Source: Podaxis mareebaensis (lineage: Eukaryota > Basidiomycota > Agaricomycetes > Agaricales > Agaricaceae). From it: DNA of 47,787 nucleotides. The position numbers and the translations under genes were made by a program. Every line of letters starts with the position of its first letter. The first letter of the stretch is position 1. The DNA lies in contig JAEUWP010000233.1 in the NCBI GenBank assembly GCA_018524725.1, positions 1-47,787 on the forward strand, written 5' to 3'. Below, piece after piece: positions 6,961-44,184 of the stretch. The notes beneath the pieces are model-generated. The model saw nothing but the letters and a program-made list of their open reading frames with translations. It did no database searches and was not told where the DNA came from.

Positions 6961-7045
6961 CTTTAAGTCTCTCATCAAAAACTTTATTATTCATTCTCAA
7001 TTATTCATCGATTTTAACTTTCTTCCCTCCTCGTCGTCGCCAACG

Positions 7046-18586: not shown

Positions 18587-18644
18587 TGCTTTTAAACAAA
18601 GTCAGATAATGAGGGGGCAGGGGACTGATGTATATGGTTTATGA

Positions 18645-18702: not shown

Positions 18703-18705
18703 ACC

Positions 18706-19500: not shown

Positions 19501-19504
19501 TAGT

Positions 19505-19665: not shown

Positions 19666-19730
19666 TTAATTTTTGGTGTTTTTCATTGTTGCTTTTCTAT
19701 GAAAATTTACATGTATACATACATCCAGTA

Positions 19731-20015
19731 TGTTGGCTGTCCTTGCATACCCTGGTGTTATGGTCTCATCTATGTTTAGAACATACTTACTCAGCACACT
19801 GTTTCATCCTATGTTTCAGCCCCTTGCTACACCCCACCTTAGTCATCCACTGACTCATCATCTTGTTTCATCTATTCTTAGCTGTCCTTTCTATAGTATA
19901 TAAACCCTAGGTAGAGCACCTGTATTCCTTATGCTTTACTAACTAGTTTTTTCCCCTTTGCTCATCCTCAAGTCTTTGCCTAGTTGCAACCTGAGTTCAT
20001 ACAAAGGTTGTAACA
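19731..20015 (+). repeat. putative 5' LTR of the first gypsy element
   Basis: A 285-bp stretch starts with TG and ends with CA (TGTTGGCTG...GTTGTAACA). It contains a good TATA box (TATAGTATATAAACC near 19,892) and is followed by TTTGGTAAAGTG, a plausible primer-binding region. It lies just upstream of gag. No matching 3' copy was found, so the call rests on position and signals only. Confidence 0.4.
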
Positions 20016-20205
20016 TTTGGTAAAGTGTCACCAACTCACCTTGTAACAAGGAAGGCCCAACTAGGGGCATATACCAAGGCACAACCAGGTATGACACCAG
20101 TGCTCAACTAGAAGCAAGGCTCAGTGTATGAGTGGAAGCAATATTTGAAACAGTTGAGAAGGAACACCAGCACCATACAGCCTAGGACAGACCAGAGAGT
20201 CATTA

Positions 20206-21258
20206 GTGGCAGAATTTTCAGATGTTACAGAGAGCAAACACACCAATGATGAAGAGACCACTGAATCAGAACTTGAAGGCCAACTAGAACCTGCAGATGA
20301 AGAGCAACCAGAGGAATCAGCAGACAAAGAAGAGCCAGAAGAACTTGCAGATGAAGAAGAATCAGAACCAGTAGACAAAGAAGACATCAATATCAACATG
20401 GCTGAAGAAACAGCAGCAACTCAGCAGACAGGAGGGAAATCATTGGTCCCTGATCCAGGATTTTTTGATGGAAACAGAAGCCAGTTTGATGACTGGTGGA
20501 GGTCAATAACATTTTTCTTGAAGTTCAACAAGATTGATGAGGCTGACAGGAGGGCTGTAGCAGTACTCTCACAAATGAGAGGAGGAACCACAGGACAATT
20601 CACAAGCATGAAGCTCAACCAGATGGAAAACAGTGACAACACATTTGTGTGGGATACATTCTGAAAGGAAGTAGAAGCAACATTCAGGAATGAAGGGCAA
20701 CAAAGTGATGCAGAATGGAGAATTGAGACATACTGACAGAACAACAAGCACATGGCAGACTTCCTCATTGAATTTGATGTATTGAAGATGAGATCCAAGA
20801 CAGATGACAAACATGCCATATTCCTACTCAAGAAGAACACATGTTCAGACATCATCAAGACCATATTAGGATTCCTAATCAAGGCAATGCCTGAATCCTA
20901 CAAGCAATAGAAGGAGACCATCTTGAACATTGGCTTAGGATATGAAGCTGTTGAAACCCAAACCAGACACACAGGAACTGGCATCACATATGGAGGCATG
21001 GGTCAACCAATGGAGATAGGAAGGCAGATGATGCCCAACAACAAGGCACCACCCTGATGTTTCAAATGCAACATTATAGGGCACATCACCTAAGACTGCA
21101 AGAAGCCAGGAGGAAGAAGGTGCTTCAACTGTGGCAGAGAAGGGTACATCTCTAGAAACTGCAGAGCACCCAAGAAGGCATGCATCAGGAGCATGGAGGA
21201 GGAACAGGAAGGCAAGGAAGGATCAGAGCAGCAGGGTTTTTCTGAAGGCTCAGAGTGA
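20206..21258 (+). pseudogene. gag of the first gypsy element
   Basis: A capsid/nucleocapsid-type polyprotein. An acidic, Glu/Asp-rich N-terminus is followed by a capsid-like segment (FFDGNRSQFDDWWRSITFFL) and then two zinc knuckles near 21,060-21,165. The first reads CFKCNIIGHIT-stop-DC; the second, CFNCGREGYISRNC, has Tyr in place of the metal-binding His. In-frame stops occur near 20,663, 20,737, 20,909 and 21,056, three of them TGA. The true start is unclear because the frame upstream is also broken. It cannot make a full Gag protein. Confidence 0.8.
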
Positions 21259-21347
21259 GTGCAAACTCTCAAGCCATTGTATTTAAAGCTTCTTCTAGAC
21301 AATCATACATGATTCCTCAAAGAAGAAGTGGAGTGTGAGAACTCTTT

Positions 21348-24300: not shown

Positions 24301-24765
24301 AAGAAGGGACCCAGGTGTGGCTCAAAGGAACAAACATAATGACAAATCAGCCAACAAAGAAGCTTGATCACAAGTGCTATGGACCCTTTAAGATACTCAA
24401 GAAAGTGGGACCAGGAGCATACCAATTGGAGCTACTAGAAGGATGGGTTATCCATGATGTATTCAATGAAGCATTACTAACACTATATCAACTGCTGAAG
24501 TTTGTGAATCAGCAAGCCAAACCACCACCACAACTGGAGCTCATTAATGGAGAAGAAGAATATGAGATAGAGGAAATTTGAGGACATTGCAAGAAAGACT
24601 GAGGAATACAGTACCTCATGCACTGGAAAGGGTACAGTAATAAACATGACACATGGATAGCTGAATCAGCACTCGAGAATGCTCAGGAGGTGTTACAGGA
24701 TTATCTCCAAAGGTTTCCTGGAGCAAAACCTATAAAGAGGAGGGGTAATCAATGGTTATAGCAAT
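21348..24765 (+). pseudogene. pol of the first gypsy element (PR-RT-RNase H-IN-chromodomain)
   Basis: Domains in order: aspartic protease (21.38-21.7 kb, active site reading TLVNSKCTHTC, with Asn for the catalytic Asp); reverse transcriptase (22.0-22.5 kb, QDYWKLNSVT, FGLCNSPGTFQRMMN, catalytic YMDD); RNase H (22.8-23.06 kb, YAIGGVLSQEQGEKWHPIAF); integrase zinc finger (23.45-23.6 kb) and core (IDMIGPLPES, then ISNRGPQFAS, with Asn for the second catalytic Asp); and a C-terminal chromodomain (24.55-24.7 kb, IQYLMHWKGYSNKHDTWI). More than a dozen in-frame stops, nearly all TGA, fall where relatives have Arg. The chromodomain would have directed integration to modified histones. The element is dead. 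Confidence 0.88.
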
Positions 24766-25796
24766 ACAACACCCCAAGCAAACTCAGACATAGATGCAGA
24801 CCAAAGCATCCAAACCTTTGTCCCTACCACCCCCCCCTATTGACACCCTCATCACCAACATTGAGCAGCAGTTAACAGACAACAACCCAGCCAAGCAATT
24901 CAAAAAGCATATACAACTAGCATGAGACATCATCCACCTTCAACAAGTTTACAACAACATATGAGAAGCCACTCAGTTATTTGCCCAAGTAGTCCAAGCA
25001 ACCATCCCACAAGTCCACAATTCAGCCAAAGGATCAGGACAAGCCACCCAGATGAACCAACACATCCACATCATCCTCCACAATGCCAACAACTACCTCA
25101 CATCTGACACAAGTGACTGATTCACCAGCATCCTAGTCATGGTGGCAGAACAGCTCTCCAAGCTCAGCATAACCAATGATGAAGAGAAGGAGAACTTTGT
25201 ATCCTGCCTTGTATCACTCACCCAAGGAAAAGACCCCTTTCCTCATGAACATCCAACTCCACAACCCACTCCACAATGCTATCCCTTGACAGACTCAGAA
25301 TCAGATGAAGAAGTTCCCACCATCAAAGAAGAGGTCATGCACCTCATCAAGTTCCTTACCCCTGAATGCATGGGTCCTGCTACAGTCAAGAAATGTGAAC
25401 CCCCAGTCCCATTCAAAACTCTGAAGAAAGATGGTGAGAAAGATGAAGAGTACTGGAGGAAGATCCTCCAGGTCCTAATTGAAGATCACAGCAACACCAG
25501 CACTACCTACTAAGGCACCATAATCCCCATGTATGGTGGAGGACCTGACTATGCCCCATTCTTCATTGCCTGAAAGAAAGCTACCAACCAATTCTTCATT
25601 GGCCCTAATATGAGGGACATTGCTCACAAAATCACCCATTGACTACAAGTCCCACTGTTATGTAGAGATGGTATGAATGTTGTCTCAGTGTGGAGAGATA
25701 CTGTCCTAAGACAACCCAACACTATTAAGTTCCTGATGTGGAATGCCCGTCCATTCTCTGGAGAGAACTAGAGGCTGGTTGGAAATCTTGCAGGGA
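24766..25796 (+). pseudogene. unrecognised ORF downstream of the gypsy pol
   Basis: A decayed frame follows the chromodomain and a purine tract (AAAGAGGAGGGG near 24,737). A run of eight C near 24,828 shifts the frame. After it the protein reads on for about 300 codons with scattered TGA stops. Visible parts are an amphipathic N-terminus, the open stretch 25,139-25,513 (VAEQLSKLSITNDEEKENF and an acidic TDSESDEEVPTIKEE), and a Trp-containing end near 25,730 (TIKFLMWNARPFSGEN). I do not recognise the family. It is either an extra gene of the retrotransposon or a fragment of another element. Its decay matches pol. Confidence 0.5.
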
Positions 25797-25799
25797 CTG

Positions 25800-26290
25800 C
25801 CTAGGGAGAGATACAACTTGTAAGGTTGCAGGCTACTCCATAGGTTTAGCTGTTATGCCAGTTATCCTGTCAGGGCAGGTAGAGCTCTCATACAGCAAGA
25901 AGATAGAGTGGAAGACAGTCCTTGCTATTCTCATGCTATGTACAAGTGATCATAAAGCTAAGTTCTACTTACTTTACAAGTTATCTAAATACTAGCACAA
26001 TTGCCATTCTACATGTCCACATTGAGAATCTCATAGTTACTTTGGTGTTTCTAATTATACTAGACTGAGCCTGAGGTATCTACAGAGAGGACTTATTATT
26101 ATACAATGTATCACCAAGCCTGAGTGCTAAACATAGTGCTACTTTGGAAGATCTGGGATAAGACTGAAGGTCAAGATAGAAGTTGAAACAAGGTGGATGC
26201 TTGGAGTCCAAGAGACAGAAGGACAGTCAGAGATAAGGAGGTGGGAATGAGGAGGACATAGCAATGATGGAAACAAGAGGATTGTAACAT
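25800..26290. other. CpG-poor sequence with no visible gene
   Basis: No reading frame, LTR or repeat could be assigned here. It may contain the degraded 3' end of the gypsy element. Confidence 0.35.
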
Positions 26291-26299
26291 CATCCCCTT

Positions 26300-26714
26300 T
26301 GTATGATTGAACTCTGGATCAATCTACCTATAACAGGTGTCAATCTCAGCAAGGCATCATTTCAACTGGTTCTGGATAGGGATGTTGTTCATAGTGACAT
26401 GGTGTCCTTTGGTTTGTTTTGTGACAGGATTGAAAGTGTACTCAGTAGTGGTATTTTCTAATGCTCCACAATCATGAGGGATGGGTCGAGGAATGAGAGT
26501 GAATGCATCTTCATATAGCATATTCTGTCATCCTCTTTGACCAAGAGTCAGAGCATTGGTGAGAAATTGGACACGCTTCTTGGCTTCTTCATATGTAGGG
26601 CCATTGATAGGGGATTGATATCGAGATGGGATGATGGGAGTCTGGGGACATTGAATACACTGCCAAGAGTGGTGATTTCATCCTTGACAGAATCGGCACA
26701 TGTGATTAGGACAG
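26300..26714 (-). pseudogene. fragment of an ORF with a CCHC zinc knuckle
   Basis: The minus strand encodes a peptide with the CX2CX4HX4C spacing of retroelement nucleocapsids (CRFCQG-stop-NHHSWQC), followed by SPINGPTYEEAKKRVQFLTN and more, with TGA stops at Arg-like positions. It is cut off on its upstream side by the poly-T tail of the LINE at 26,715. It is probably part of a retroelement gag but resembles neither gag in this window. Confidence 0.45.
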
Positions 26715-27130: not shown

Positions 27131-27498
27131 CGGGTGCTGCAGTTGATTGATCAATCGGAGCAGTTAATATTAACAGTGAGTTGGTTCAGATTTCAGTTGT
27201 TCTCAACCTGGAACCAATCAACTGTTCAACAGTGAACCATTTACTTAGCCATTTTTAGTACATGACTAAATTTGATCACAAATGGATCATGAACCATTCA
27301 AAATATTGAACAGTTCACTTAGGCTAGATATGATTGCAAATGGATCATGAACCATTCACTTATGCCTTATGAACCAATCAAATATATCTGAACCATTTAT
27401 TTACACCCTGAACAGATGCATGAACAGATACATGGATGAATAATGAACAGCTGCATGAACAGATGCATGAACGGATCAACCATTTACTTATACTCATG
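27131..27498 (+). repeat. left terminal inverted repeat of the KDZ element
   Basis: About 330 of these bases match the reverse complement of 43,835-44,184, for example GGAGCAGTTAATATTAACAG and CTTAGCCATTTTTAGTACAT. The outermost 15 bases are poorly conserved. Inner parts contain repeated motifs such as GAACAGATGCATGAAC (near 27,410-27,465) and GAACAGTTCA-like palindromes, which could be transposase binding sites. Confidence 0.88.
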
Positions 27499-27766
27499 GG
27501 GAACGGATGCATGAACAGATCACTTAAGTTAGGACAAAGGATAGATGTATTTTAATCTCTGAAATCTATCCTAATAATATGATTGTGTATCCTTAGCGAG
27601 CATGTATATAGCAATCCAGACTGTCTACTACCCATGGTGAACCCTATCCAATCCATCACTTGGCTGTTGACTTGACATGTGTCGAATGTCAACTACAAAA
27701 TTTCAGTAAAGGAGGGAAAAAGGAATATATTACATACCTTGCTGGTACCTCACTGACTGTATGGCT

Positions 27767-29653
27767 TCATAAATTTCTGTGGGTACTAACTGCCAGGTGG
27801 GCTCCCCTTTCCCTCCAGCCCCTCTTGCCTACACTCTTGCTGGCGCGACTTCTCAACTTGGTTGCGACATCATCCTGCTCACTCAGTGTGTCCCTTAGCT
27901 CTGCCAGTGTGTCCCCCCACTCCATCAATGTGTCCCCCTGCACTGTCAACATGTCCCCCTGCACTGTCAATGTGTCCCCCTGCTCTGTCAATGTGTCCCC
28001 TTGCTCAACCAACATGTCATTTTCAATAGCTTGGCACACTACTTCAGCCAGAGTGGTAGGATGTGTGAGAATTGGGCTGTCCATCTCAACATCAGCATTT
28101 CCAAGATGTGGCCTACTGTTGTCTTTGGGCACTGGCAAAGCAGAAGCTGTAGGTGATAGAGGATGTGGTAAGGCAGATGTGGATGGACTGGCCAACAGAG
28201 GTGACTGATCCACAACATGTGGCAGTGCAATGCTAGGTGCCATAGAACTGTCAGAGGACGACTGTGTGGAGGGCTTGTCATCAGGGCCTGAGTGAGAAGA
28301 GCTGGCATCAGCTAGGGAAGTTGACTGCTCATGATAGGGAGTAAAAACAGTGGGATGTGTATTGCAGATTTCCATAACAAGGTCTTTGAGGAGGTCAAGA
28401 GAAGCAATCTTCTCTGGGTGAAAGGGGGACAGGGCTGCAAACTTGGTGTTAGGTACCAAATATGTCAATCGGCCTTCAAGAGTCTCCAATGCCTCCCATG
28501 GTATGTTACCTGCTGACTGAAGATTCCCATCACTTGACTCTAAATCTGCATCAATGAAAATTTCCATGGAATAGAGTTGAACTCACCCCAAGATTCTGTA
28601 ATAAAACGAAGAATGGTCCCATGAAGCTGTTTTGGAGTCATGTTCTCCAAGTCTTCTTCTTCAGAATAACCTGTGATACAAAGAATGAGAAATATGAACT
28701 CAACTTGAATGTGATTTAAGTACAAGTTAAAGTATGGGGTAAGATACGATCCACCAACCTTTTCAAGGCTGGGTAGCTCATTTGCCTGAAGCAGTCAACT
28801 AATTCCTGTGCATCACTATCATCTGCATCAATGGTGAGATTTGATGTCATTGAACTTTGAAGAACATTAGCAGTTACATAGAAAGGTGAAGCACCGAAAC
28901 TCACAAATCACCATCGATTTCTTGTGTGGGCATCCGATAAGCAACAGCGAAGAAGCAGATAACATTCCCAAGTTGACCAGGCTTCTTGCAGCCAAAGTGT
29001 TTTCCAATGGCAGTGCTGATCACCTGAGCCATTGTAGATTGTTGCCTAGGACAAAGTTATAAGCATAGATAATGGATAGATATATTCTAATGATACTTAC
29101 TCTTCAATGTTGTCAAGTGTTGGAATGGCCTTACAGTGAGCAGTCTCCTTGTCCACCATTGCCTTGTAACGCATTATGCCTTCCTGGGTTGCTTCTGCTG
29201 CCATCTTTTCCCTGGCATGATAATAATGCTTTAAATATGAACCGTGCATTTCAATGCCTTCCGAGAGCTTGAGTTGATTCATTTGCTTGTCGAGTAGGTC
29301 TTGCTTCTCCTTAGCCATTATATGGACCCAGGAGACTGCGCAAGTTGATGAGGAAGCTGAATACCCATCGTTATTCAGTTTTTGTTTCTGTCCAGAAGTT
29401 CTCATTCCATTGTGATTCCTCAGATAGTAGTTGACCACCTACCAAAGTAGTGCCAACAGTTAGCAACCGAGGCTGTTAACATAAGATAATTACTTACAAG
29501 AAGCAATGCTTTGTCAGCTGTACCAAACTGCTTGCTAAATGGATCCATAACATTCTTGCGAACCCATGCGATCTGGGCACCCTGTGGCTTCACGTCTTTG
29601 GACTTCTGGAAGATATTAAACTCAAACTGAAATGTGTTGATGAACCGCTTCAT
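27767..29653 (-). pseudogene. unrecognised multi-exon cargo gene with a heptad-repeat C-terminus
   Basis: A chain of minus-strand exons with good GT-AG borders. The first contains KRFINTFQFEFNIFQKSKDV and IAWVRKNVMDPFSKQFGTADK and joins to VVNYYLRNHNGMRTSGQKQK (intron at about 29,500-29,440). The next contains MAQVISTAIGKHFGCKKPGQ and YRMPTQEIDGDL. Then comes DADDSDAQELVDCF with an acidic segment. The last open stretch (28,567-27,767) is Ser/Pro-rich and ends in seven heptads of the type EQGDTLT/VQGDTLM, likely a short coiled coil. I do not recognise the family. Junctions around 28.57-28.9 kb are unclear, so the gene may be broken. Its position inside the inverted repeats marks it as transposon cargo. 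Confidence 0.5.
27885..28016 (-). repeat. 21-bp coding minisatellite (heptad repeats)
   Basis: Six to seven copies of a 21-bp unit (plus strand TGTCCCCCTGCACTGTCAATG and variants) encode 7-residue repeats on the minus strand. The period keeps the reading frame, so copy-number changes would not break the protein. Confidence 0.75.
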
Positions 29654-29659
29654 ATCCTC

Positions 29660-30600
29660 AGTCAGTCAGGCAGTGAGCGAAGTTGGTGTTGAAATACCAG
29701 GCATGGTGGATCGTGAGGTAGGGGTGTTGGGCATAGTGAAGGGCAGGAAATATAGTGGGGGATGGAGCAGCAAGAGGAGTAGGGGGAGCACAGAGGTGCT
29801 TGGTCACCTATAGCTTAAAAAGGTTTTCTTTGAAGAATCTTCAGTTATCTATGACTCTACATGGAGTGTCTCATGAAAACAGCAGACATGGTGAAATGAA
29901 CAGGATCTCAATAATCCTGTGGTGATATCTCAGCAACCATATATTTACTTGAATGGTGGAGACAATCATCCTGAAAAAAAATATATATATATATTCATGT
30001 GCTTGGTTGTGTCGAGACCTTCAGTTCTTCAGGCCATTCAATAGCATTTGTCTGTACATGTTAGCCCATGGATCTGGGGTGAAATCTCACAGGTCATTAG
30101 TTAAGTGCACTGTAAATTTGTTTTAATGGCAGAGACTACCATCTTGACAAACACTGTTCAATGCTTGGATGTGATGAGACTTTTTGTTCAGACTGGGCCA
30201 CTTATACTATCAGGTACAAGTTTATCGTGTATGATATCCTCGAACCAGATCTGACATACTTTGGGTGTTCTAGGTACATATTCTGACTATGTACTACTAG
30301 TAAAGTGGAAAGAAAATTTCTTGCAATTGAGACATGACACTGCCTTCAAAGCCATAAGACAAGCTAGCTTGATTCAATAAAATTTTGATACAATACAAAC
30401 ATTCACACACCTCCATTGACACAATCTTGATATGACACATTCAAAAGCAGTGTGCAAATGGTGAGCTCAAAGGTATCTTTCTGATGGCCTGACCTTCCAG
30501 AATGGTTACTCAAGGAAACAGTGGCAATAAGAAATATGGGTGAATACTAATCCAGGTGGCAGCAGGGAGCCCAGTGGTTGACTACTCAATAGCTCAGAAT
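29660..30600. other. region between two divergent cargo genes, with an imperfect direct repeat
   Basis: This segment lies between a minus-strand gene and a plus-strand gene. Two stretches (about 29,905-30,035 and 30,070-30,215) look alike: both run GATCT..., then ATCTCA..., then GG.GA.AC.ATC.TGA, then ATG.TTGG.TGTG. They may be a duplicated control region. No gene is visible. Confidence 0.35.
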
Positions 30601-30611
30601 ATAAAGCTTAC

Positions 30612-31676
30612 TTGACATATTGCTTGCAGCAGGGATATACCCATGTTGAGAAAATAGACTTGTCCAGAACAACGGTGAAGACGTATTATTGCCATGGATT
30701 GATGGTTCATATTGGCTGTTATGCCTTCGAGGTCGTTCATCTGATCACAGGGCTTAGATTTTTTGTCATAGTTGGATTAGTTATAAGGATCGTTTGCATG
30801 AAACATTTGAGTCCTCAGCTCTCAGCAAATAATGAATACCCCTACTATCCCAGTTTTCATCTGGAGTGTTGTATGTCACCACTAAGCTTCCCTCCATTTA
30901 TTCAACTGATTTGTTACCAGAAAAACAGTGGTCCCGACTTCTATGACATTTCCTTGACTGAGGGAAAGCTAGCTTTTGATGACAACTACAAGTTCTACCA
31001 GCACACCAAGTCCCCTTATGTTCCCTACGATCTATATGATGCACAGGATGGCCAATTTAGTCCCATTCCATGCCCACATACACAGACCATTGACCTGATC
31101 TACCAACCCTGCCTCCTCATCAAGAAAAGCGAACTCGAAGACTTTGAGTGCCTTGGGCTGCCCCACTACATTGACTCATTGCTTGATACAATTCACCATA
31201 TTATGGATCCTGATTCTATGGATGGCGAGCAGTGTGAGTACAAAGGAGGGGCAGCTGGCCTCCATTACAACTATGATGAGTATTTGGGTGACAGCAGTGT
31301 GGGGAACAATGAAGACCAGTGGTTCATTGAGGAGGTTGATGAAAATGACAGGGATGATGACTATATGGAGACAGACAAAGAAGAGAGTGGTGAAGATGGT
31401 GAAGATGACAATGAGTACGAGTATGGGGATATTGGGTCGGATGAGATTGACAGATTGAACAAGGACGCAGAATCCCTAAACAGCATTGTTGTGACTGGAG
31501 CAATGGTTGCTGATACCTCAGCCTCAGGGGGGAACCGCAGCACCCAAGAGATAATTGACTTGACAGGCACAGATGACAGTGACAACAGAGACGCTATTAT
31601 CATGATTACTGACTCAGAAGACGAGGTTCCATTTGTGGTTAACTCCGATGGTATTATAGACTTGACCCATTGAGCA
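30612..31676 (+). CDS. unrecognised cargo protein with an acidic tail and SUMO-interaction-like motifs
   Basis: This frame is open for 353 codons, an exception among the broken genes around it. The middle reads SGPDFYDISLTEGKLAFDDN and QTIDLIYQPCLLIKKSELED, and the family is unknown to me. The C-terminal third is strongly acidic. It contains IIDLTGTDDSD (near 31,550), IIMITDSEDE (near 31,595) and a terminal IIDLTH. A hydrophobic core IIDLT followed by acidic residues matches the SUMO-interacting motif known from proteins such as RNF4. The N-terminal third (about residues 35-110) looks like retained intron sequence, so the real start and splicing are uncertain. It stops at TGA 31671-31673. It lies inside the inverted repeats of the KDZ element. 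Confidence 0.5.
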
Positions 31677-31907
31677 CAGCTTGTATCTCAGACTAGTTAC
31701 ACAATGATATAGTTTGTTACCAATGCCCTGAGGAGCAGCACTTGCAGCCTGTGCTCTAGAACACTTTGGGGGTTGAGGTCTGCTGGGCAGTCCACAGGTG
31801 GCTGAGCATGAGCACCCAAATCCGCAGGTCTCAGGGCACTTGAAAAAGGTTGGTGTTCTGCAGAGATGGCAGTACCCTGGCCAACATTTCGTCTAACCCC
31901 AGACTTA

Positions 31908-32580
31908 AAAGCTTGGTCTCAAAAAATATATATTATACATATCATTTTATTCTATACAGGTATCTATGTGGAAGAGTGGAAAGAAGGAGTAAGGAGCAAT
32001 GGAGATATAGATAAAGGGACAGATCTATTTAGGGCAGGTGCAGTCACGTGCCATTCCCCTAACAAGAAATATAATACTTAATAATTTGCATCTGAACAGG
32101 GCAAGCTATTTGGCAAAGCCTTCACCCAGAAGGCTCTGCCAAATAAAACCATTGTGTGTAACTAGGTAGGTGATGCATTTATTTGGCAGAGCCTTCACAC
32201 AGAAGGCTCTGCCAAATAAAACGATTGTGTGTAACTAGGTAGGTGACGCATTTATTTGGCAGAGCCTTCTGTGTGTATACAAGTCTAGGTGAATGACATA
32301 TATATTTGGCTATGTTTACTGGTGCTTGCCCTAAACATATCGAACCCTTTATCTAACTTGACTCATTACTAGGGAACTCCTTTCATGACTACCATGAGCT
32401 ATAGAGAGCACCAAGCTATGATGTATGTAGTATTAGATATTCAAATAATGTGGCACAGTTTGAAATGATAAACACCTGGACATGAGACAAGCAGTATTCA
32501 TACACAAGACAACAAGGAACATACATATATCCATGTGCTAATCAGTTGTCAAATGGTCAGGGTCTGGAGAGGGTTTGATT
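31908..32580. repeat. first copy of a duplicated non-coding module with hairpins
   Basis: It aligns with 33,848-34,745 over most of its length. Both copies begin with TGGTCTCAAAAA and contain GGAAGAGTGGAAAGAAG and CCCCTAACAAGAAATATA, followed by hairpin repeats. Three hairpin units are here (32,107-32,145; 32,178-32,220, with perfect 18-bp arms TTATTTGGCAGAGCCTTC; and a half unit at 32,248). The module could be a promoter or a nested non-autonomous repeat. Confidence 0.7.
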
Positions 32581-33847
32581 CAGTGAGATAGCAGCCTAGC
32601 ACCTCCTGGCACTCAGAGTGCTATGCAACCGGCACCAGCCTCCCCAAGGATGGACCAAAAAGAAAAGAAAAGGTTGGAACCAAGCAGGATGCGATAGATC
32701 TGACAGCTGCCGAACTGGCTGGTGCCCCTCCCTCCAGAGGCTCCCCACCGTGGGACCAGGAATGCCCCAGCACCTGCCTGGGCAGTGTTGATGTACACAA
32801 CAGAGTCAACACTAAGGTGGGGAGAGACCTGATATTGACTGAAACCTGCTGGGAAGGGCAGGGGGTCAGAGTTGCTGATGTCAAGGATGTCTACAGTATC
32901 AAAGGTGGAGGGCCGCTGGAATTCGCAAGTGGGGGCAGAACTGAGGTTGCTAGCTTCAGAGTTCTTCAGTTTTATAGCTCCTCAGGAAAAAACAGGACTC
33001 TTTTTTCCATTCGGTGAACCCTCACTCAGGCATCAAAGACTGGGTGTCAAGACTAACTGTGGGCCCAATGTTGTGAACACAATTCTCAGGTATTCTATGC
33101 ATTTTACACTCAAAACAATGGGCATGTTTGGTGCCCAAATGAAAGTCAAACCTCAAAAAAGAGTTCTCAAAGCCAAGCCACTGCCCCTGAGGCATAGTGA
33201 ATTTTAGATATTATGTGCCATTATGTGTGTATTCTCTTCTTTATGTTCAACAGAACAGCGGGTCAGTCGGGTGGGACTTGATGCACCCAAGGCCAAAGTT
33301 CCTGATGGAGGAACCGAAGCTGTAGCCGAGGTTGGTGATGTGGCTAGTTATCTTGCCCAGTATCAGACCCTTACTTATTTGGAACCGAGTTTTTCTTTTC
33401 TTTTGGTCCACCCCAGGCCTCCCCCAATCCTTTGGCTAACATGTTGGTGGTCAGGTCAGGATTGGTTTTGGGTGCATCAGGTCCTGGCAAGGCAGGACAG
33501 TCTTGCCCCTAGGGTCTAACAATATGCATTTACCCTGCTGGATATTGAGCAGCAGGTGGATAGTCTAGACATCCACTGACATGTATTCCAATAAGTAATT
33601 GAATACACTCCTGTGCTTGTTTGGATCCCCTTTGCTTATGAACTTTTCGATTCTGGTATATACCCAGTCTGGAGTTGGGCTGTGCAGTAAAGTTGATGTG
33701 AAGACTCGGGCATCTATGCCTTTACGCCCAAAGAGAAGTGGAATTCTTCCACTCAAAACAGCCGAAGGGTAGTTGTAGATGCCTCTACTATGAGGACAAC
33801 CACCCATGAAGTCTTACTCAGGCAACTGTACGCTCATCACCACGAAA
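32581..33847. other. spacer between the two modules, with a weak inverted repeat
   Basis: The segment GGACCAAAAAGAAAAGAAAA near 32,652 recurs in inverted orientation near 33,400 (TTTTTCTTTTCTTTTGGTCC), with some flanking similarity. This suggests a decayed inverted-repeat insertion of about 0.9 kb. Short open stretches exist on both strands, but none shows a consistent gene. Confidence 0.35.
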
Positions 33848-34745
33848 GCCTGGTCTCAAAAACAAATATATATTATAAATATCACTTTATTTTATATGTG
33901 TATCTATGTGGAAGAGTGGAAAGAAGAAGTAAGGAGCAATGGGGAGATAGATAAAGGGATGGATCTATTTAGGGCAGGCATGGTCACATGCTTTTCCCCT
34001 AACAAGAAATATAGTACTTAATAATTTGTGTCTGGACAAGGCAAGCTATTTGGCAAAGCCTTCACCCAGAAGGCTCTGCCAAATAAAACCATGTATGTAA
34101 CTAGGTAGGTGATGCATTTATTTGGCAATGCCTTCACATGGAAGGTGCTACCAAATAAAACCGTGTGCACTAGGCATCTGCTTGACAATGCCTTCACACA
34201 GAGGGTGATGCCAAATAAACCCTGTATTGTATCATCTTACAATACATTTGTTTGGCAAGGCTTTCACCCGGAAGGCTCTGCCAAATAAGATCTCATATGT
34301 ACCAGGTAAGTACTTAGGTGATGCATTTGTTTGGTAAGGCCTTCGTGCAGAATGTGCTGCCAAATAAACTGCGTATGTATGGTAGGTGACATGGTTGAAC
34401 TTGTTTGGCAATGCCTTCACCCACAAGGCATTGCTAAATAATATTGTAGAATGAGGACAGCACAGTTATTTGGTCATATTTATGGCTGCCCACCCTAAAC
34501 ACATTGAAAGCTTTATCTAACTTGACTCGCGGTTGGGAGACTTCTTTTGCAACTATGACAATCCATTGTGTATCAAATGTCGTGGTACTCTATAGTAGTT
34601 CATTATACCCAAAATAAAATACACCAGATCAGTGCAACATACAACCTCTATATTCTATATTTGCAAAAAAGATATCAAACATTTGGATATAGTCAGGAAC
34701 ATGAGTCCCACATCAACCACCTGTCAATCAGTCAGGGCCTACAAC
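33848..34745. repeat. second copy of the module, with six hairpin units
   Basis: After the shared 5' part come six hairpin units at about 34,047, 34,118, 34,170, 34,248, 34,328 and 34,400. Each has the form TTTGGCA..GCCTTC, a loop of 4-5 bases, then GAAGGC..TGCCAAA. In several units a change in one arm is matched in the other. For example, the last unit has AATGCC paired with GGCATT where the perfect unit at 32,178 has GAGCC paired with GGCTC. The Spt5-like gene starts soon after this array. Confidence 0.75.
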
Positions 34746-34899
34746 GGATCACATACAGATGTCGTCAGATGCTCAGTCCACACAGCCCCTTCAGAAGTGT
34801 AGTACAGAACAGGCAGAACAGGTGGAGGTACATTAGAGTTCTGTATGTTAGATCCAATATAATGCTAATCAATGATATTTTGCTAGACTGCAGATGTGT

Positions 34900-37387
34900 G
34901 GAGCATGAAACAAAGATGTATCAATGGGAGGAGTTCAGCTCACAACCCATTTATTGATGATGAAGCTGAAGACAATGAGGATGAGGATGGGGAGGATGAG
35001 AGTGAACCTGGTGATGGTGAGTGATACTTAGAATGTTACAGCTCTGTAAGCCTAACATGATGCAGCTGATTTTATTGACGATGGAGGTATAAGAGAGTCC
35101 GAGGGCGATCCCATCTGTGTGCTTGAACATCAACTTGCTTGGGATCTCAGTGGGAATGAGAATGAGGGGGGCAATGGAGGCAATGCTTTCCTCACAGCTC
35201 TAGAGGAGAGATATGTCCATAATACCTCAAACCCTGTGCCAGCTACTCTGGACAAGTCAGCATCAGATGAATATAGTACTCATGCACCTCATGCAGGTGA
35301 TTGGCTGCTCTGGGAGGTTAGAGTCAAGGTAAGTCTTATTATTCTGGTAATGCTGTCTTGACCTGAACTCCTGAAATACAGATCGGAAATGAGGCAGTGA
35401 TGGTGTACCGACTCTACGAATGTTCATTGGCTGGAATGGCTTCACCACATGCAATGCCCAAGTCCATCTTTTTCAAATGCAACTTTCCTGGCCATGTCTT
35501 CATTGAGGCAGACACAAAGGATACTGTCTCACAACTCTGCAGAGGCATCAATGAAATTAAGTGGAGTAGAATAACAGTGGTATCTCATACTATTGGTATT
35601 GAGCATCTTTCTTCCCCACCTAACATGTTTGTTCCAAAGCCTGGAACATGGGTGCAACTTAACGATCCAGCCTTCTTAGGAGACCTGGCCTATGTTCTTG
35701 TGGCCAGCCCAAATAACGATGATATCAAAGTCATGACCTTTCCCTGTTTTACATACTGTCATGGGTTGGACACTTCTGAAGCTAGGCTCCAACGAGGATG
35801 CAAGTTGGAGTGACTAATATTCAGCCCAACAACTGCTAATGAACTCAATTCAAAAAACCCAGTCAACCATGTCTATGATCAGGATGGCCAAGTAACGGGC
35901 TACAAATATCTGGGTATGACATTCGATGTCTCTGGGTATCTGATCATGAGCACCCAAGACTATTTCCTTGCCGAAGCACAAGCCTCTCAGAGTGAGATCC
36001 AGCACTATAGCCAGTGCATCTCAATCCCACTGCTTGCACTGGCCAGGGCTGGGCATCAACTGGAACAGGCTGCTCTTTCCATGGGTGATTGAGTCATATT
36101 CACAGCCAGTAGCTTGAAAGGTTCAATTGGTCACATCAGGGAGATTGGCCCTTCCTCCACACATGTTGAGCTTCTCGACCAAAGTCTTGAGGCTGTTGAA
36201 GTGCCTTGGACAGAGTTACGGCATCACCTCCTTGTTGGAGATGTGGTCCAACTAAAATCAGGAGCACCTGGACAGCTTACAGGTGTTAAAGGTTGGGTCC
36301 TCAGTGCTGATGAAGGTGCCAATGCAGCCACTATCTTTCTAGTTCGCAATAAGGTGGGCTTTCAGCAGGTTTCTTTGAATAGGGCTCATGGATTGTATCA
36401 GACTGAAGTCACAGTCAAACTCTCAGATGTTGAATTGACAACTCTGGACTTCGACTTCAAACAAGAGATACTCAGAGGTACAAAGTCCTTTATGGAGACC
36501 AATATTTACGCAAAATATGTTGGCAACAAGGTTATGGCTGTTACTGGGCCCTACAAACAATACGTCAGGAGAATCACCTCTGTTAACTTCAAAGGGATGG
36601 CTACTGTAGAGTTCGAGGCAAAGGTGATTAATGTGAACAAGGTGGAGGAAATGGATATACACACACTCATGTTCATCATGTAAGTATTTTCAATTGGCAG
36701 TATTATCATTTAGTGCTCACTTGTACACAGCGAAGGTGAAGAATATCTCTTCAAGATTGACAATCTAGTCGAAGGAATCGAGCTCATGCCCACCCCCATC
36801 TGTATCCCTGGTTTTTCAAGACCTGCTCCAGAGGCACAACATAGCCAGACACCCCCACCTGACAGCACTGTCAATGTTGACCCTGCAGGAACTCCATGGG
36901 TCCCTGATGAGCAGGATCTCATTGAGTTAAGACTGGCAATATGTGAGTATTTTAGGGAATTCAAAAGGCGATTTTCAATTCTAACATCATATTAGCTCCC
37001 ACCCACTGGATCCCAAGAGTTCTTAAGCTCCTGGGTAGCTGCACCCATATTTGGCTCAGGATCACTGATACCACTCATTTTGAGGGTGGGCACTATGCCA
37101 ATGCAATTGGAGCACTGATCAACATCGAGGGGAACCTTTGCAAAATAGTCCTTAAGAACCATGGCAGCCTCCGCATAAAGGTGCCGTACATCTATGTGGA
37201 GAACATTCTGCCAAGCAAGGAGATCATTTGGCATAACTGTATCAACATTGAAGACAGTCCACACTTCAGAGACAGGCACTACCTCCTTGAGTATGCTCCC
37301 GACTTCTGTGGGGTTGGTGGTTTTGGACCAGCCAAGTACAGGGTCAAGAAAAGGTTGTGGACCTGTAAACTAGTGGCTTTCTCTTGA
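34900..37387 (+). pseudogene. Spt5-like transcription elongation factor paralog (NGN and KOW domains)
   Basis: The spliced plus-strand chain has the layout of Spt5, which binds RNA polymerase II and promotes elongation. An acidic N-terminus (EDNEDEDGEDESEPGD, about 34,950-35,020) is followed by an NGN-like domain joining DWLLWEVRVK to IGNEAVMVYRLYECS, with GHVFIEADTKDTVSQLCRGI. The first KOW domain follows (KPGTWVQLNDPAFLGDLAYV). Further KOW domains are at about 36.09 kb (SLKGSIGHIREI), 36.23 kb (VGDVVQLKSGAPGQLTGVKG) and 37.09 kb (GHYANAIGALINIEGNLCKI). It lacks the CTR-type repeats of true Spt5. TGA stops near 35,812 and 36,092 replace likely Arg codons, so this copy is broken. It lies within the KDZ element and is not the essential housekeeping SPT5. 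The exact start is unknown. Confidence 0.72.
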
Positions 37388-39160
37388 TTCACTGTCCTTC
37401 ATCACCTTGCTATTGCACTGCCTCTCATTGACTTGCAATTTGTATTCGATCTTTCTACAACCAATACATCAGCTTATTCTTCACAGTCATTTATTTTTGG
37501 AATGCAAGAAACTACCAGAAGTGGGACTCAGTGCTATTTCTGGAATCTACACCACAAGATCATTAAGATCTTGATCAGGGCCAATTTGATATTGATTCAA
37601 AATCTCAAAATCACGATCTAATGATGAGTCTCAGATCTACAAACACAAAATCTTGTTGAGACAGTGCAGAGATGGGGGGCACAGACTCAGTGACATGTCC
37701 CCTCTGTCCTGAACTCCCTCCTCCACCTCACCTCGAGTGATGAGTAAATGCAAGGCTGTGTTTTTCAAACTGCCTGAGGCAAAGCGACAGGCTGTCCACA
37801 TTGTCTATACTGGTGCTACAGGCTCTCAGACGATTGTTCAGACGTACAAGGTTGCAAATGCCAGTGTTCAGCCCATGGTAGCTAGCAACTCCCAGCCGGT
37901 GGAATGTCTTATTGATGATGAAAGGGATGATGAAGACAATGTTGAGGAGATTAATGTCCAGTGAAAAAAACAGGTACATGCATTTCTTCTCTGGGAGTTC
38001 TGAAAGCTCACTGTGCGAGTAGACTGCATATTCAAGGATTGAGACATTCTTACCTCATCTCAATGAGTTTCAACAGTGTTTCATGCAGCTCGAGACAAGT
38101 TCTGCAGTCAACAGCACATGTCCATCCTGCAATATGCTGCATTCCTCTAAATATCAATACACTGAGTGTTTTGACTCCTCAATTTTCTGCCAGACTTGCA
38201 TCATGTGCCAGCATCAATCACAGCCATTTCATCACATTCAACACTGGACTGGCACCCATTTTACCCAGGCAACACTTCACAGCCTTGGTCTGGTGATATA
38301 TCTTGGCCATGGTGGCAAACCTTGTTTGGCATCTAGTCTCAACAAGGAAGTAGTGATTGTTCACATTAATGGAATTCATAGACAATACATATGATTCTGT
38401 GATTGTAGGAATACTCCCCCCAATTATTCACAGCTAATGCTTGCACGACTATTCCCTGCTTCTATCAAAAGTCCATCAACTGCATTTACATTTCAACTCC
38501 TCGAGACCTTCCACCAGCACTCGCTCAGCTCAAAGATAACACCCTATGACTTCTTTGATGCACTCAAGAAGCTCACGGATCCAACTTTCCCACAGGAGGT
38601 TGAGGTGAGCACCTCCATTTTGTCCAGTGTTCGGGTCCTGACCAAAACTATGGTAGGATCGATATAAAGAGCTCATGGCAGTTATGCTCATTTGGCAGCA
38701 CTTGGCTGAACTTTGTCGCTCAGGCCAGGAACACAAGATTGACATTGAACTCCCATACTGATGACCAAAGTCCCTCACTATCCAATGCCCCACTTGTCCT
38801 GAGATAGGCTTTAATGTTCCTTTTGAGAAATTGGCAGAAGCTTTGGAATGTGACACGTAAGTGATCCAATCTAGCCGTTCAGTTGATCCATCACTGATAG
38901 TTGGGCAGGCACACACTAACCCTGTACCTAGCCCTTGATGGCAATTTTCGCTTACACCAAAAGAACAAGAATAATGATCCGGATAACATTCCCCTGAATG
39001 GGGGGAATGCATATTTTGTCAATATCCATGAGTTTCAACAGTTCCTGAAGCACTTCAACAAAGCAGCCACTCATGTGAGCACTAAATACCATGCTCTTGA
39101 CCTCTACTAAGGACATATTCTAGGAATCAACCTGCTCGAAGCTCAAGGCAGTGCATCAGC

Positions 39161-39175
39161 AAGAGATGATCAAAT
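39161..39175 (+). repeat. target-site duplication of the young LINE, left copy
   Basis: AAGAGATGATCAAAT here is repeated exactly at 41,727-41,741 after the poly-A tail. The first two A of the right copy cannot be told apart from the tail, so the duplication is 13-15 bp. Confidence 0.92.
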
Positions 39176-41427
39176 CCCTTCAATTCGGAGGAATTATTCA
39201 GCGCTCTACAGAAGACGCTGGTATATACGTTACTCATCTTGTTCGTACAGGTTGGAAACGCAAACTCAAAACCAGCGTCATCGCATTCGATGTCGCTCAA
39301 TTCTTCCCATCCACTAACCACTCCGTCCTCATCTCCACTCTTCGCCGCCAAGGCTTCAACTCTAATCTCGTTTCTTTTTTCTCCGATTATCTAAAGAATC
39401 GGTTCACCACTTACTCTTGGAACAATAACTTATCCCCAAAATTCCCTGCTTCCGTTGGTGTCGGCCAAGGCTCTGCCCTTTCCCCCATTCTCACTGCTCT
39501 TTCCCTTTCGCCATTTATGTACAAATTCTCCAACGATCCGCGTTGTAAAATAGTCTCTTTTGTTGATGATGGACTTATTGTAGTTCAATCGGACTCCTTC
39601 GCTACTAACTGCCGCCTTCTCTCACAGGTCTACAAAAACTGTGAAGAACACCTCAAACGCCTTGGATTTGTTCTCGAAAGAGACAAGACCGAGGCATTCC
39701 ATTTCTCCAACCGCCCCTCTCACGACCCCAATCCTCCCGTCACCATCGACGATTCCCTTACCATCCACCCCAAACCATTCCTCCGTTACCTAGGTTTCTG
39801 GTTCGACAGGAACCTATCCTTCAAAGAACATGTTCGCTTCTACGCCACTAAAGCCCTATCCACCGTTAGATGCATGCGAATGCTTGGAAACTCCGTCCGT
39901 GGCCTCTCTCCCCTACACAAGCGGCTCCTATACCGATCCTGCGTCGTCCCCATCGCCATCTATGGATTCCGTTTGTGGTTCAATCGCAACGCCAGGTACC
40001 GTGGACTAATCAAGTCCTTACAACGCATGCAACGACAAGCCGCCCTATGGATTACAGGCGCATTCCGCACCACTCCTACTGGTGGGGTTGAGGCCATTGC
40101 CGGTCTTATCCCCATCCAACTCCATCTCTTCAAACTAGCGAAACGTTGCTCCCTCCGATTCCACACCCTTCCCCCTTCCCACCCCTTGAAACTCCTCACA
40201 CGTAACATCAACCCCTTAGACGCGCGACATACTAAACAACGCTCTACGGCGCTTGACTTCGTCTCGGACGCTCAGCTGGTCACGGACCGGTTCCAGCGTC
40301 TTCATCCTAGCGCCAAACCTGGCCAGCGCCTGCTGGACTTGTTTAGCGATCAAATTAAATTCGTCGAGTGTCCCGACCCTTCGAAAGAGGGTGCCATGGC
40401 ACTTCATATCGCCAATGCCTCCCGCGCTCGAGACTCTGCTTTCACCTCCCCTGTTTCCCTCCTCGTAGCTACAGATGGTTCCGTCCCCACAAACCCTTCT
40501 CTTTCTGCCACATCCGCTTTTCTTGTCTTCAATTCTTCTGAAACTGACATTCTTTCCTCTGCCGTTCATCCCTGCGGTGAAGTTACCTCTTCTGACTCTG
40601 AATCGTACGCTCTCCGACTCGGCCTGTTTTCCTCTATCTCTCACTCTCAATCTCTGAACTCATCCTCGATCGTAGTTTTTACAGACTCTATCGCTTCAGC
40701 TAAACTTCTATTTTCTTATAGACCTCACAGCGCGCATCCGGACTCTATCGCGGTCGCTCCCCTCCTTCACTCCTGGCTCTCCTCCTCTCCTCTCAATCAT
40801 CTCCACTTTTGGTCCATTCCCTCATCCGCCAATTGGTCCATCCATCACAAGGCGCACACCCTAGCTAAATCGCTCCGCCTACCCAATCCACGTCGTCAAC
40901 CCATCCGCACTTCACTCGGTTTCGTTCGACATCATTACACCCAGAAATGCCTATCCTTATGGCAACAAAAGATGAACGATTCCTCTTACCGCGGTCACAA
41001 TTGGCTCCCACTAGTCAACCCCGCATCACAACCCCTCCAACCCAGGTACGCCAAAGGCGGTACTTGGCTAAATTCGCCCCTTGGGAAGAACGCCAACTTA
41101 TGCGCGCGCTTCACACGCTGCGTTACCAATCATGCGCCCATAGGCGCCTTCCGACAGCGCTTCTTCCCCGGGCGTCACATTACTTCCTGTGCATGCGGCG
41201 AGCCTCTTGAAACTCGTGACCATATCTTCGACGACTGCCCCCGCTTCCGATACCCAGTAGGATTACGCGATGGATTCTACTGGGTTATCCAATTCCTAGA
41301 CCAAAACCCCGCGGCATTTTCCTTCGCTGACCAAATACAAGGACCCGTCACCCAAGAGGAGTTCGCCACGCGCCGCCTCAACAGGAGAGAGCGACTTGCA
41401 AGAAATGGAGTACCCGATGTTCACTAA
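39176..41427 (+). CDS. LINE reverse transcriptase / RNase H, N-terminally truncated
   Basis: About 750 codons are open without a stop. The RT part begins at FGGIIQRSTEDAGIYVTHLV and shows SVIAFDVAQFFPSTNHSVL, GVGQGSALSPIL and the catalytic FVDDG. RNase H follows with its acidic residues in VATDGSVPTN, SDSESYALRL and FTDSIASAKL, and a basic/His end IHHKAHTLAK. The C-terminus has a CCHC zinc finger (SCACGEPLETRDHIFDDCP). The endonuclease and the first part of RT are missing because the copy is 5'-truncated, so it cannot move on its own. The open frame runs on upstream into KDZ sequence by chance. Its CpG-rich codon use contrasts sharply with its neighbours. Confidence 0.9.
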
Positions 41428-41728
41428 AGGTCTTCCCCCTCCATCATCACCCTGTATCATAGCTAGCTCCCTGCTCCTATCTCTCCTCATCTCTCCCCAA
41501 TCTCTTCGTTTCCTTTTCCGATTCGTTAAGTTAGCTTCTCTCTCTTTTCGTCTCACCTCTCTCGTGTATTTCGTATACTCTCACCTCTCTAGTTCTAAGT
41601 CTTCTCCCCCTTTTTTTTTTCGTTTCCTTTCTCTAGTTTCGGTATTGGGACTGCTATCGTGCACCCATTTGTAGTAGCTAGTCTATTGCAATAAACGTCG
41701 ATTTAAAAAAAAAAAAAAAAAAAAAAAA
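39176..41728 (+). mobile_element. young 5'-truncated LINE (Tad/jockey-like non-LTR retrotransposon)
   Basis: It starts inside the reverse transcriptase domain, has no endonuclease and ends in a run of 24 A (41,705-41,728). A 15-bp target duplication flanks it. Unlike everything around it, it is rich in CpG (seven in 40,201-40,260), so it arrived after most of the decay of its neighbours. The 3' UTR is 41,428-41,704. Confidence 0.92.
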
Positions 41729-41741
41729 GAGATGATCAAAT
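41727..41741 (+). repeat. target-site duplication of the young LINE, right copy
   Basis: An exact match to 39,161-39,175. Immediately after it the KDZ transposase continues with KFTNM and VVAVQCARHRF. Confidence 0.92.
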
Positions 41742-43834
41742 TCACAAACATGATATACAGTGGTGTGGTAGCTGTTCAGTGTGCACGACACAGGTTTTAT
41801 CAACCACAAGGCATTGTTGACCTTGTCCGAGGAGAATCATACATTTATTGATGCTCCCATATCAGAGTATATCTAATAAACTTCGCATTCAAGGTATGTA
41901 CGCACAGACTTTACTTTTGCCAGTGCCCTTGGCCCTGAAGCATTACACCAATGATGGATCATGCTCAGTTACAACATCTGGTGTCAATATTCAATAAACC
42001 TGAAGAAACGGATGGAACACCAGTTTCCTCAACTGAATCAGGTCTTTGATCACATAAGAGGAGCAATTCCAAAGATGCACATTCATGGGCATGGGGTAAA
42101 ATGCCAGCTCAATTGTTCCTTTTCGTATATGCCATACTCTGGAATGATGTGCAGAGAAGGTATTGAGAGTGCATGGGCAGAGCAGAACCATGCCACTGGC
42201 AGTACAAAGGAACAAAGCAGCAGTCATTGACATGATTCCCTCAATGACTTCAATGCATACTGGAACTGGACAAAGCTTCACTGACTCCATAAGTAACCCC
42301 CGTCATTATTGCAGACTTAATCTCAACATATATTTAGCCAAGTATTTGCTGTCTAGCTTCTACAAATATTGGGACGAGTATCAAGAGTGCAAGGAGCTCT
42401 TTGAAAAACTAACAAGTCGATTCAAAAAGGAGACTGTGAGCAAATGGGAGAAGATGACGGAGCTTCCTGTGAGGGACAAGGATGGGAGTCCACTCAGTGC
42501 CTATCAAGCTGCTGTGGTCGAAGGTAGGCACAATTTGATTTCAATTTGCATTGTCAGTCGAATTAACTGAACTATTTTGTAGTGCCTTCCCAGCCTGTGC
42601 AATCTGCCAAGCTTGTTGAACAAATCACCAATCAACAGGCAGCCGATGAGTGTCCCAGACTGATTCACCTGCTTGAGAAAGTGATTGAAATTGAATCATT
42701 GCAGTATGTTGGTTCAAGTATTTATTGTTTAAATACTGATCCATCCATTGGTTCAAGGTCCAAAGTCAAAGTACAGGCCTCATCAAAGCAGGCCAATCAA
42801 GAGGCACTGAGCCGTAATTGAAGCGACCTACTTAGAGTCATTGAATGGTGGAGATTGGGCATACATGAAATTTTCCCAAAGGCCCATGGGCATGCAAATG
42901 CTCTCAACCCCAAGGACGAAATCCTAGAGTTGCCATTGTCCTATACTAGCATCAAGGAGTGTCAGGAATTTGGTATGGAGGAATTGTCGAGATTGGAATA
43001 TGATCTCCAGTTGGGACAGGCATATGATGCAATCGATGACTTACAGTGTTCTATTCATATTTACAACATGTGCTGCAATGAGAAGAAGATTCAGGTCCAT
43101 GGCCAGCGACCAAACACTTGGGCTTGGACTATACTCACCTCCCTCCGAAACAATGCTCAGCTATGTGCAAGACAGTATGAATCAGCATATCAAGCTCTTG
43201 TCACACTTGGACTTCCAGCTAACTCAGAACTCAAACAACTTGACCAGAATGAGCTGTGGGGTAAGAACATGACTACTCTTGATCCCCTCAGTAGTTCAAA
43301 GCAAAAGGAGCCATGGTTCTGGGTGACAGGTAAGCCAAAAGATGCTTCAGAGGACGATTGGCAACTGGAATGTATGTGCCCTGTTCAGCTACCACATCCT
43401 ATCACTAACTATTTTCAGTGGATCGTGTCCGTTGGTTCTGTTCATGTGCCCTGCTTGATTGTGTGAGAGAAGAAGTGGAAATATTGCAAGCTGAACTCAA
43501 AAGGACCACTATTTCATTCATGTGAATGAAGGATATCTGGGTAGTCATCAGGGATCAGATGCTCAATGAGTTGACAGATAAGGATCTGGGCCATGGGTAT
43601 TGCAGCTTTGCTTATCGGCAGGCAGACATCTATTTGAAGCTGGCAAGATTTGCTCAGAATGCATGGGACAAGGCATATATACTTAGTGAGTAACCTGCAT
43701 TTACACAATATTGTTTCTGACAGCTGGTTTCAGCCAAACAATCCAGATCCTCTCCAGCTACCATGAAATGAATCACTGCCTGAACAGATGATCTGTGATT
43801 CAAACATAATCCTGTTATTGATCAGTTCATATAG

Positions 43835-44184
43835 CATGAGTAAATGGCTGATTCGTCCATGTATCTGTTCATTATTCATCCATGTATCTGTTCATGCATC
43901 CATTCAGGATGTAAATAAATGGTTCAGATATATTTGATTGGTTCATAAGGCATAAGTGAATGATTCATGATCCATTTGCAATCATATCTAGCCTAAGTGA
44001 ACTGTTCAATATTTTGAACAGTTCATGATCCATTTGTGATCAAATTTAGTCATGTACTAAAAATGGCTAAGTAAACAGTTCACTGTTGAATGGTTGATCA
44101 GTTCCAGGTTGAGAACAACTGAAATCTGAACCAACTCACTGTTAATATTAACTGCTCCAATTGATCAATGAGCTGCTACATGTG
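43835..44184 (-). repeat. right terminal inverted repeat of the KDZ element
   Basis: The reverse complement matches 27,131-27,498. Several differences are CpG in one copy and TpG or CpA in the other (for example CAATCGGAG at the left and CAATTGGAG at the right), so the two repeats were probably identical at insertion and decayed separately. Confidence 0.88.

Follow-up and report, generated by a model that had tools for sequence, protein, structure and literature searches.

Can a DNA transposon carry a transcription elongation factor of its own, and what would it gain from doing so? The known escapes of transposons from silencing are few, e.g., demethylating enzymes and anti-silencing proteins. 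The question is raised by a contig of the mushroom Podaxis mareebaensis (JAEUWP010000233.1; its whole stretch of 47,787 nucleotides is called the window below, and C23 when set beside other contigs), in which a first-pass annotation had proposed a 17-kb KDZ transposon carrying an Spt5-like gene and two further non-transposase genes. The genome assembly (37 Mb, 429 contigs) was scanned for its ends, genes and relatives. Positions 27131-44184 of the window are a single KDZ DNA transposon, a decayed copy that is delimited end to end, with the Spt5-like gene directly upstream of the transposase.

A single KDZ element and its copies

The element measures 17,054 bp, or ~14.5 kb after subtraction of a long interspersed nuclear element (LINE) nested in it. 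Its inverted-repeat arms are 322 nt long and 94% complementary, whereas the top complementarity among 500 shuffles of one arm was 38%, which rules out a chance or mis-called repeat. The ends read CG..TG, and the same 7-bp target-site duplication, CAGTGAA, stands on both sides. Between them, the transposase gene has a CxC2 domain (PF18803, 117.7 bits for a Pfam cut-off of 27, the highest score among 16 genome-wide matches) followed by the KDZ domain (PF18758, 94.3 and 77.7 bits, cut-off 26.6). The long inverted repeats, the duplication and the CxC2-KDZ transposase were thus correctly annotated at first pass. The block is also one element, as claimed, but not an intact one, since the KDZ gene is interrupted by the nested LINE of 2,551 bp, and two TGA codons stand in the Spt5-like frame. 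The in-frame TGA codons in the KDZ matches could suggest an altered genetic code, but introns and CpG decay can suffice to account for the stops inspected.

Both flanks of the element are halves of one LINE-like element, so labeled because their DNA is 67% similar to the nested LINE, in which a reverse transcriptase is encoded; the flanking open frame itself has no Pfam match. A paralogous LINE-like copy on another contig (C72:5857-7780) is continuous across the insertion site, being 83% identical to the left flank and 79% to the right one. Since this copy reads CAGCAAA at the duplicated position, and not CAGTGAA, it is a paralogous empty site rather than the same allele.

Six stretches of the genome match the left repeat. 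Two of them are in the window and three on C72, among these a short second piece; the sixth, 73 bp long, lies at the extreme end of contig C268. C72 carries a second copy (9145-32540) with both ends, collinear with that of the window and ~94-96% identical, the collinear spans being window positions 27133-35209, with internal gaps, and 38518-44184, without the LINE. Because positions 35209-38518 are replaced there by 12.7 kb with two gypsy-like sets of frames (by eye), what remains on C72 is just the beginning of the Spt5-like gene and a portion of CxC2. Its termini are CA..TG, and no 7-bp duplication was recognized around it. The gene set is present in both copies having both inverted repeats, in C72 with the 5' part only of the Spt5-like gene, so that recurrence within matching repeats, which the first-pass annotation had named as support for one element, is seen within this genome.

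A diverged relative on C225 has ends at 17329 and 32326 (15.0 kb) and a 7-bp duplication, GCGATAA, on either side. It matches the window in four blocks of identical order and orientation, at about 28-59% protein identity. The counterparts are the left gene (minus strand, 19276-19422, one 50-aa match, 42%, E 5e-8), the gene with SUMO-interaction-like motifs (SIM gene; plus strand, 21676-21981, 28%), the Spt5-like gene (plus strand, 25044-25694, 29-33%), CxC2 (27586-28233, 33-48%), and KDZ with the part downstream, to 30340 (31-59%). The C225 termini are CG..CG. A first inverted-repeat scan of C225, C412, C48 and C113 found none, and a laxer one gave as sole plausible end pair on these contigs a 52-nt stretch of C225, at 83%. 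Left ends of C225-family copies were found on C178 and C366 (CATCAGTGGCAGC) and a right end on C412 (CAGGGATGGC); where one end alone was seen (C178, C366, C268 and C412), it has CA, and other DNA matches to this family lie on C314, C216, C181 and C116. On C412, a C225-type element (83%) is represented by its 3' half, in which an Spt5-like tail lies upstream of CxC2-KDZ. In the window, C225 and C412, the Spt5-like gene is directly upstream of CxC2-KDZ and on the same strand.

KDZ elements known from end to end have been described before. Kyakuja-1_LB and Kyakuja-2_LB of Agaricomycetes carry a TET/JBP dioxygenase as cargo (Kojima 2025, PMC12730594), and resemble the window element in the KDZ transposase, the 7-bp target duplication and a non-transposase cargo proposed to affect expression. 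Their 5'-CA..TG-3' ends are shared by the C72 copy at both ends and by C268, C178, C366 and C412 at the one end seen of each, but not in full by the window or C225 copies. Moreover, the Laccaria Kyakuja is described without inverted repeats, unlike the window element with its ~320-bp ones, which has the Spt5-like gene instead of TET/JBP and no TET/JBP match on its contigs (in the genome, none of the seven TET/JBP matches is on a KDZ contig). Zisupton shares the KDZ superfamily and inverted repeats; however, its duplications are 8 bp (PMC12730594), and the 7 bp of the window and C225 rule out a Zisupton identity. In Pleurotus ostreatus, every intact KDZ gene is said to follow a CxC2 region (PMC7641404), as in the window element; the passages concerned give neither ends nor an Spt5-like gene, and "Spt5" and "terminal inverted repeat" have 0 occurrences in the text of that paper. 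The literature searched, whose coverage left the founding KDZ paper (Iyer et al. 2014) outside, revealed no Spt5-like gene in any KDZ element. An end-to-end KDZ element with cargo belongs to a class already known, through Kyakuja, and the Spt5-like cargo is what appears new.

The Spt5-like cargo and its relatives

The Spt5-like gene of the window was modeled with five exons and four GT-AG introns of 49-53 nt, giving 758 residues. Its NGN domain scores above the Pfam cut-off (32.0 bits against 22.4), and residues 9-437 match PDB Spt5 chains at E 4e-12, in agreement with the first identification; RNA-directed DNA methylation 3 (8hyj) is matched too (E 5e-5). KOW5_SPT5 (19.4 bits, cut-off 27) and the acidic N-terminal region PF11942 (18.5 bits, cut-off 24.2) are below threshold in this protein, and KOW is above its cut-off of 22.3 in the relatives on C225 (30.3 bits) and C113 (27.8). 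The C225 frame is open across the six exons modeled, its start not having been found, and the fold predicted for its NGN-KOW part (331 aa, 15-row alignment) has a predicted local distance difference test score (pLDDT) of 81 and a predicted template modeling score (pTM) of 0.55. The top PDB matches are Spt5 chains in RNA polymerase II (Pol II) elongation complexes (E 3.8e-18); as the TM-scores are only ~0.35, with a root-mean-square deviation above 12, the structural match is one of domains and not of their arrangement. Glutamate 42 of this frame, which we take to be an Spt4 contact of the NGN domain, is invariant in 15 of the 15 alignment rows, and likewise in the alignment behind the 13-row tree described below.

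In its NGN domain and, by less certain matches, in KOW-type domains and an acidic N-terminus, the cargo resembles Spt5, the large subunit of DSIF, and plant SPT5L/KTF1. It differs from Spt5 in being transposon-encoded, in its separate clade and in its C-terminus: by eye, C-terminal repeats are present in the host Spt5 (C166:106530-107069), and no such array was seen in the Spt5-like sequences of the window, C225 or the agaric protein P0003. In a tree of 13 rows, seven Spt5-like proteins are separated from six true Spt5, including that of the host, at 100/100 (P0002 was cut to 820 residues, and the host row was joined from four open frames).

Homologue searches with the window and C225 proteins scored only the ~8,000 candidates sharing most words with the query. 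The window protein recovered one homologue, P0001 of Leucoagaricus sp. SymC.cos. With C225 as query, 17 proteins had E <= 0.001 among 7,995 candidates scored, three being from agarics (P0002 of Leucoagaricus sp. SymC.cos, and both P0003 and P0004 of Leucocoprinus birnbaumii); the remaining 14 have the Spt5 Pfam set and comprise nine named plants, one fungus, Dispira, and four unnamed. P0002 contains, within one model, NGN (115-198), CxC2 (932-1024) and the start of KDZ (1100-1149), the last covering the first 48 positions of the domain and staying below the Pfam cut-off; we read it as two adjacent same-strand genes that were probably fused by annotation. P0003 and P0004 sit on contigs of 5.0 and 7.4 kb.

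Within the genome, NGN has five matches (host Spt5, C23, C225, C113 and C274) and, with pieces counted, four of the six non-host Spt5-like loci lie beside KDZ (C23, C72, C225 and C412). KDZ itself has 28 matches on 20 contigs. The 16 CxC2 matches fall in 15 places, and the three strongest are exactly C23, C225 and C412; when 12 KDZ pieces were placed in a tree (eight with loci from the genome-wide KDZ scan and four more), the four Spt5-linked ones grouped together, weakly, at 80/79. The remaining two Spt5-like genes, C113:4705-7300 (L038) and C274:16943-20505 (L041), lie in a common block of ~6.5 kb, the former open in the exons modeled and the latter with 11 stops. Separately, C113 bears at 13724-18811 (L039, minus strand) large frames resembling, by eye, a RecQ-type helicase and a C2H2/recombinase-like protein.

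The two copies with both ends were compared over 10,217 aligned positions, in five blocks of at least 93% identity (two overlap by 17 positions; lower blocks were dropped). Of the 495 differences between them, 479 are transitions, and 418 of the transitions have a CpG context. For 280 of the 418, the neighboring base differs too, as expected when the C of a CpG is lost from one copy and the G of that CpG from the other. The remaining differences amount to 77 (0.75%). Given the paired losses and the low residual, the copies were near-identical at parting and then lost CpG independently, a decay that would be due to methylation-driven deamination of cytosine. The observed/expected CpG ratio is 0.37 in the window element and 0.17 in the C72 copy (whole copies, inserts included), and 0.21-0.32 in the gene blocks and the hairpin array of the window element once the LINE is set aside; it reaches 0.64 in C225 and 0.84 in window positions 1-18000. 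At 1.12, the nested LINE is likely younger than the decay and would have entered recently, when the element had already decayed.

Coding constraint was assessed between C225 and C412 by the excess of third-position changes (one-sided binomial against one third). Changes at codon positions 1/2/3 were 15/15/32 in the Spt5-like tail (p 0.002), 23/28/58 in CxC2 (p 2e-5), and 18/21/38 (p 0.003) and 23/23/43 (p 0.002) in two KDZ pieces; with CpG changes removed, the Spt5-like tail gave 7/8/19. C412 now has stops in the Spt5-like tail, CxC2 and one KDZ piece. The Spt5-like genes of C113 and C274 differ by 74 synonymous against 146 changed codons, and the stops of C274 make this pair unusable for constraint.

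Possible roles of the cargo

That the element encodes an Spt5-like protein which joins host Pol II and keeps the element transcribed against silencing is, in our judgment, about evenly balanced; the first-pass suggestion that the cargo controls transcription or chromatin likewise remains an inference. Counting in favor are the delimited ends and second copy, the gene order kept in C225, C412 and the Leucoagaricus model, the separate Spt5-like clade, the fold of the C225 frame, the third-position excess, and the CpG decay, taken as a sign of silencing pressure. Such a protein would bind host Spt4 and Pol II and, with the C-terminal repeats missing, might escape the host control that acts through them. 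The benefit would lie in getting polymerase through those genes of the element that are repressed, and the cargo could be directed to the element by the hairpin array (see below) or by the CxC2-KDZ protein. By analogy, this counter-silencing role would parallel, one step later, that of the TET/JBP proteins carried by other KDZ elements, a cargo which in fungal transposons has been proposed by Kojima to strip silencing marks (PMC12730594). More tentatively, and at somewhat less than even chances, a clade of mushroom KDZ elements may have captured Spt5 and converted it into a repeat-less elongation factor that drives Pol II through the element's methylated genes, as a second anti-silencing strategy beside TET/JBP. 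If this is true, an Spt5 paralogue has been kept by a transposon over long divergence, with escape operating at transcription elongation itself, and the gain of cargo is separated from the type of transposase within KDZ, one clade having Spt5-like and others TET/JBP proteins. The model can be tested directly, because routine assays exist for the binding of Spt5 to Spt4 and its association with Pol II, and C225 provides a frame that is open where modeled.

Several observations weigh against a counter-silencing role. Both copies have decayed at CpG despite the cargo. For 12 of the 15 places with CxC2, the contig yielded no Spt5-like match, so KDZ elements generally do not need the cargo; C113 (32 kb) and C274 (30 kb), in turn, have an Spt5-like gene and zero KDZ or CxC2 matches. 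Genes away from the repeats, which the first-pass annotation had listed as evidence against a single element, thus occur in part, namely these two and a piece of the SIM gene on C48, also a contig with no KDZ match. The window Spt5-like protein, on a long branch, groups with C113 (94/91) and not with the KDZ-linked C225, so that the KDZ-linked Spt5-like genes are not one branch. From other organisms, the plant Spt5 paralogue SPT5L/KTF1 is reported to promote silencing (PMC3111484), and shortened Spt5 repeats to enhance heterochromatin in fission yeast (PMC10659198), a finding from which a repeat-less Spt5 would be expected to act in the opposite direction. As both results point that way, the leading alternative is interference with host Spt5: the cargo would compete for Spt4 or Pol II and weaken co-transcriptional silencing. 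Keeping NGN and KOW-like domains and missing the C-terminal repeats of the host protein would suit a partial mimic, and Spt5 and its paralogues do act in silencing elsewhere, as the same two papers indicate. We nevertheless consider it unlikely, since the constraint reaches the last exons, so that more than NGN is kept, and interference with an essential factor would cost the host.

The same data can be read without any counter-silencing role. The Spt5-like and SIM genes could be neutral passengers of one capture, carried along by descent, as the ~28-33% identity between window and C225 (against 57-59% for the transposase core), the broken Spt5-like gene of the window and the relatives on C113, C274 and C48 would allow; yet in neutral genes open frames and homology would not survive such divergence, C225 is open in the six exons modeled, and the third-position excess in the Spt5-like tail equals that of the transposase, which makes this explanation improbable. 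To a role in the transposition machinery, in which the cargo links the transposase to a transcribing polymerase and steers excision or insertion to transcribed chromatin, we give a similarly low probability. The cargo gene immediately precedes CxC2-KDZ in the same orientation, an order that recurs in the Leucoagaricus model, and this would suit coordinated expression, but the window copy is inserted inside a LINE-like element, and most CxC2 places have no Spt5-like match on their contig. Finally, the block might not be one element, unrelated genes having been trapped between repeat copies by successive insertions in a region full of nested elements, much as the two gypsy-like sets lie within the ends of C72. 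A composite trap of this kind is rejected on account of the C225 relative, whose own ends and duplication enclose the genes in an identical order, and two collinear copies share both ends; we leave it the slightest of chances.

Other features of the element and its surroundings

The coordinates of the features are given in Table 1.

Table 1. Features of the KDZ element in the window and of its insertion site
Feature	Position	Strand	Remark
Target-site duplication, left, CAGTGAA	27124..27130	.	identical 7 bp on right side
Left end and inverted repeat	27131..27460	+	322-nt core 27139-27460
Left gene block	27767..29665	-	exons unmodeled; C72 93% identical; C225 relative via one 50-aa match
SIM gene	30582..31673	+	363-aa open frame, two IIDLT SUMO-interaction-like motifs
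Hairpin-repeat array (TATTTGGC...GCCAAATA)	32085..34442	.	between SIM and Spt5-like genes
Spt5-like gene	34905..37387	+	acidic N-terminus, NGN, KOW-like domains; two in-frame TGA, exon 3
Spt5-like exons	34905-35016, 35066-35328, 35382-36679, 36731-36942, 36996-37387	+	
CxC2-KDZ transposase gene, 5' part	37740..39175	+	CxC2 38275-38586, one TGA; start codon uncertain
15-bp duplication of nested LINE	39161..39175, second copy 41727-41741	.	C72 copy unbroken there
Nested LINE	39176..41726	+	reverse transcriptase, poly-A; foreign to original element
CxC2-KDZ transposase gene, 3' part	41727..43466	+	KDZ 41889-42266
Right end and inverted repeat	43855..44184	-	322-nt core 43855-44176
Target-site duplication, right, CAGTGAA	44185..44191	.	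identical 7 bp on left side

The SIM gene matched no Pfam family and has relatives on C72, C48 and C225 and in a metagenome protein (P0019). The SUMO-interaction-like motifs annotated at first pass are there, as two IIDLT close to the C-terminus of the protein, a number matched by 0.06% of 5000 shuffles; a looser, acidic-flanked pattern occurs three times, a number reached by 2.7% of shuffles. The motifs are lost, however, in the C225 relative, which has DLIVIGD alone, at its end. The predicted fold of the SIM protein has a pLDDT of 39. The left gene block gave no Pfam family above cut-off in the frames scanned, and the heptad-like repeats that had been noted in it are encoded by a 21-bp tandem array at ~27874-28018. 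We regard the arguments from the SUMO motifs and from the heptads as weak.

The hairpin array consists of ~9 repeats with near-palindromic cores, and the three units tested fold much better than their shuffles (z -7.9 to -10.7). All 15 matches found in the genome fall in the two copies of the window element, and a bacterial promoter and terminator scan of the array gave nothing beyond chance. The repeats are possibly binding sites of a protein of the element.

Beside the element, window positions 19000-26500 have an observed/expected CpG ratio of 0.01 and, at 21339-21920, a match to a retroviral-type aspartyl protease; this is likely an old retrotransposon stretch in which CpG has been almost fully depleted. 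Further away, a 665-aa open frame at 7018-9015 (plus strand) with a strong Gti1/Pac2 match likely encodes a host transcription factor.

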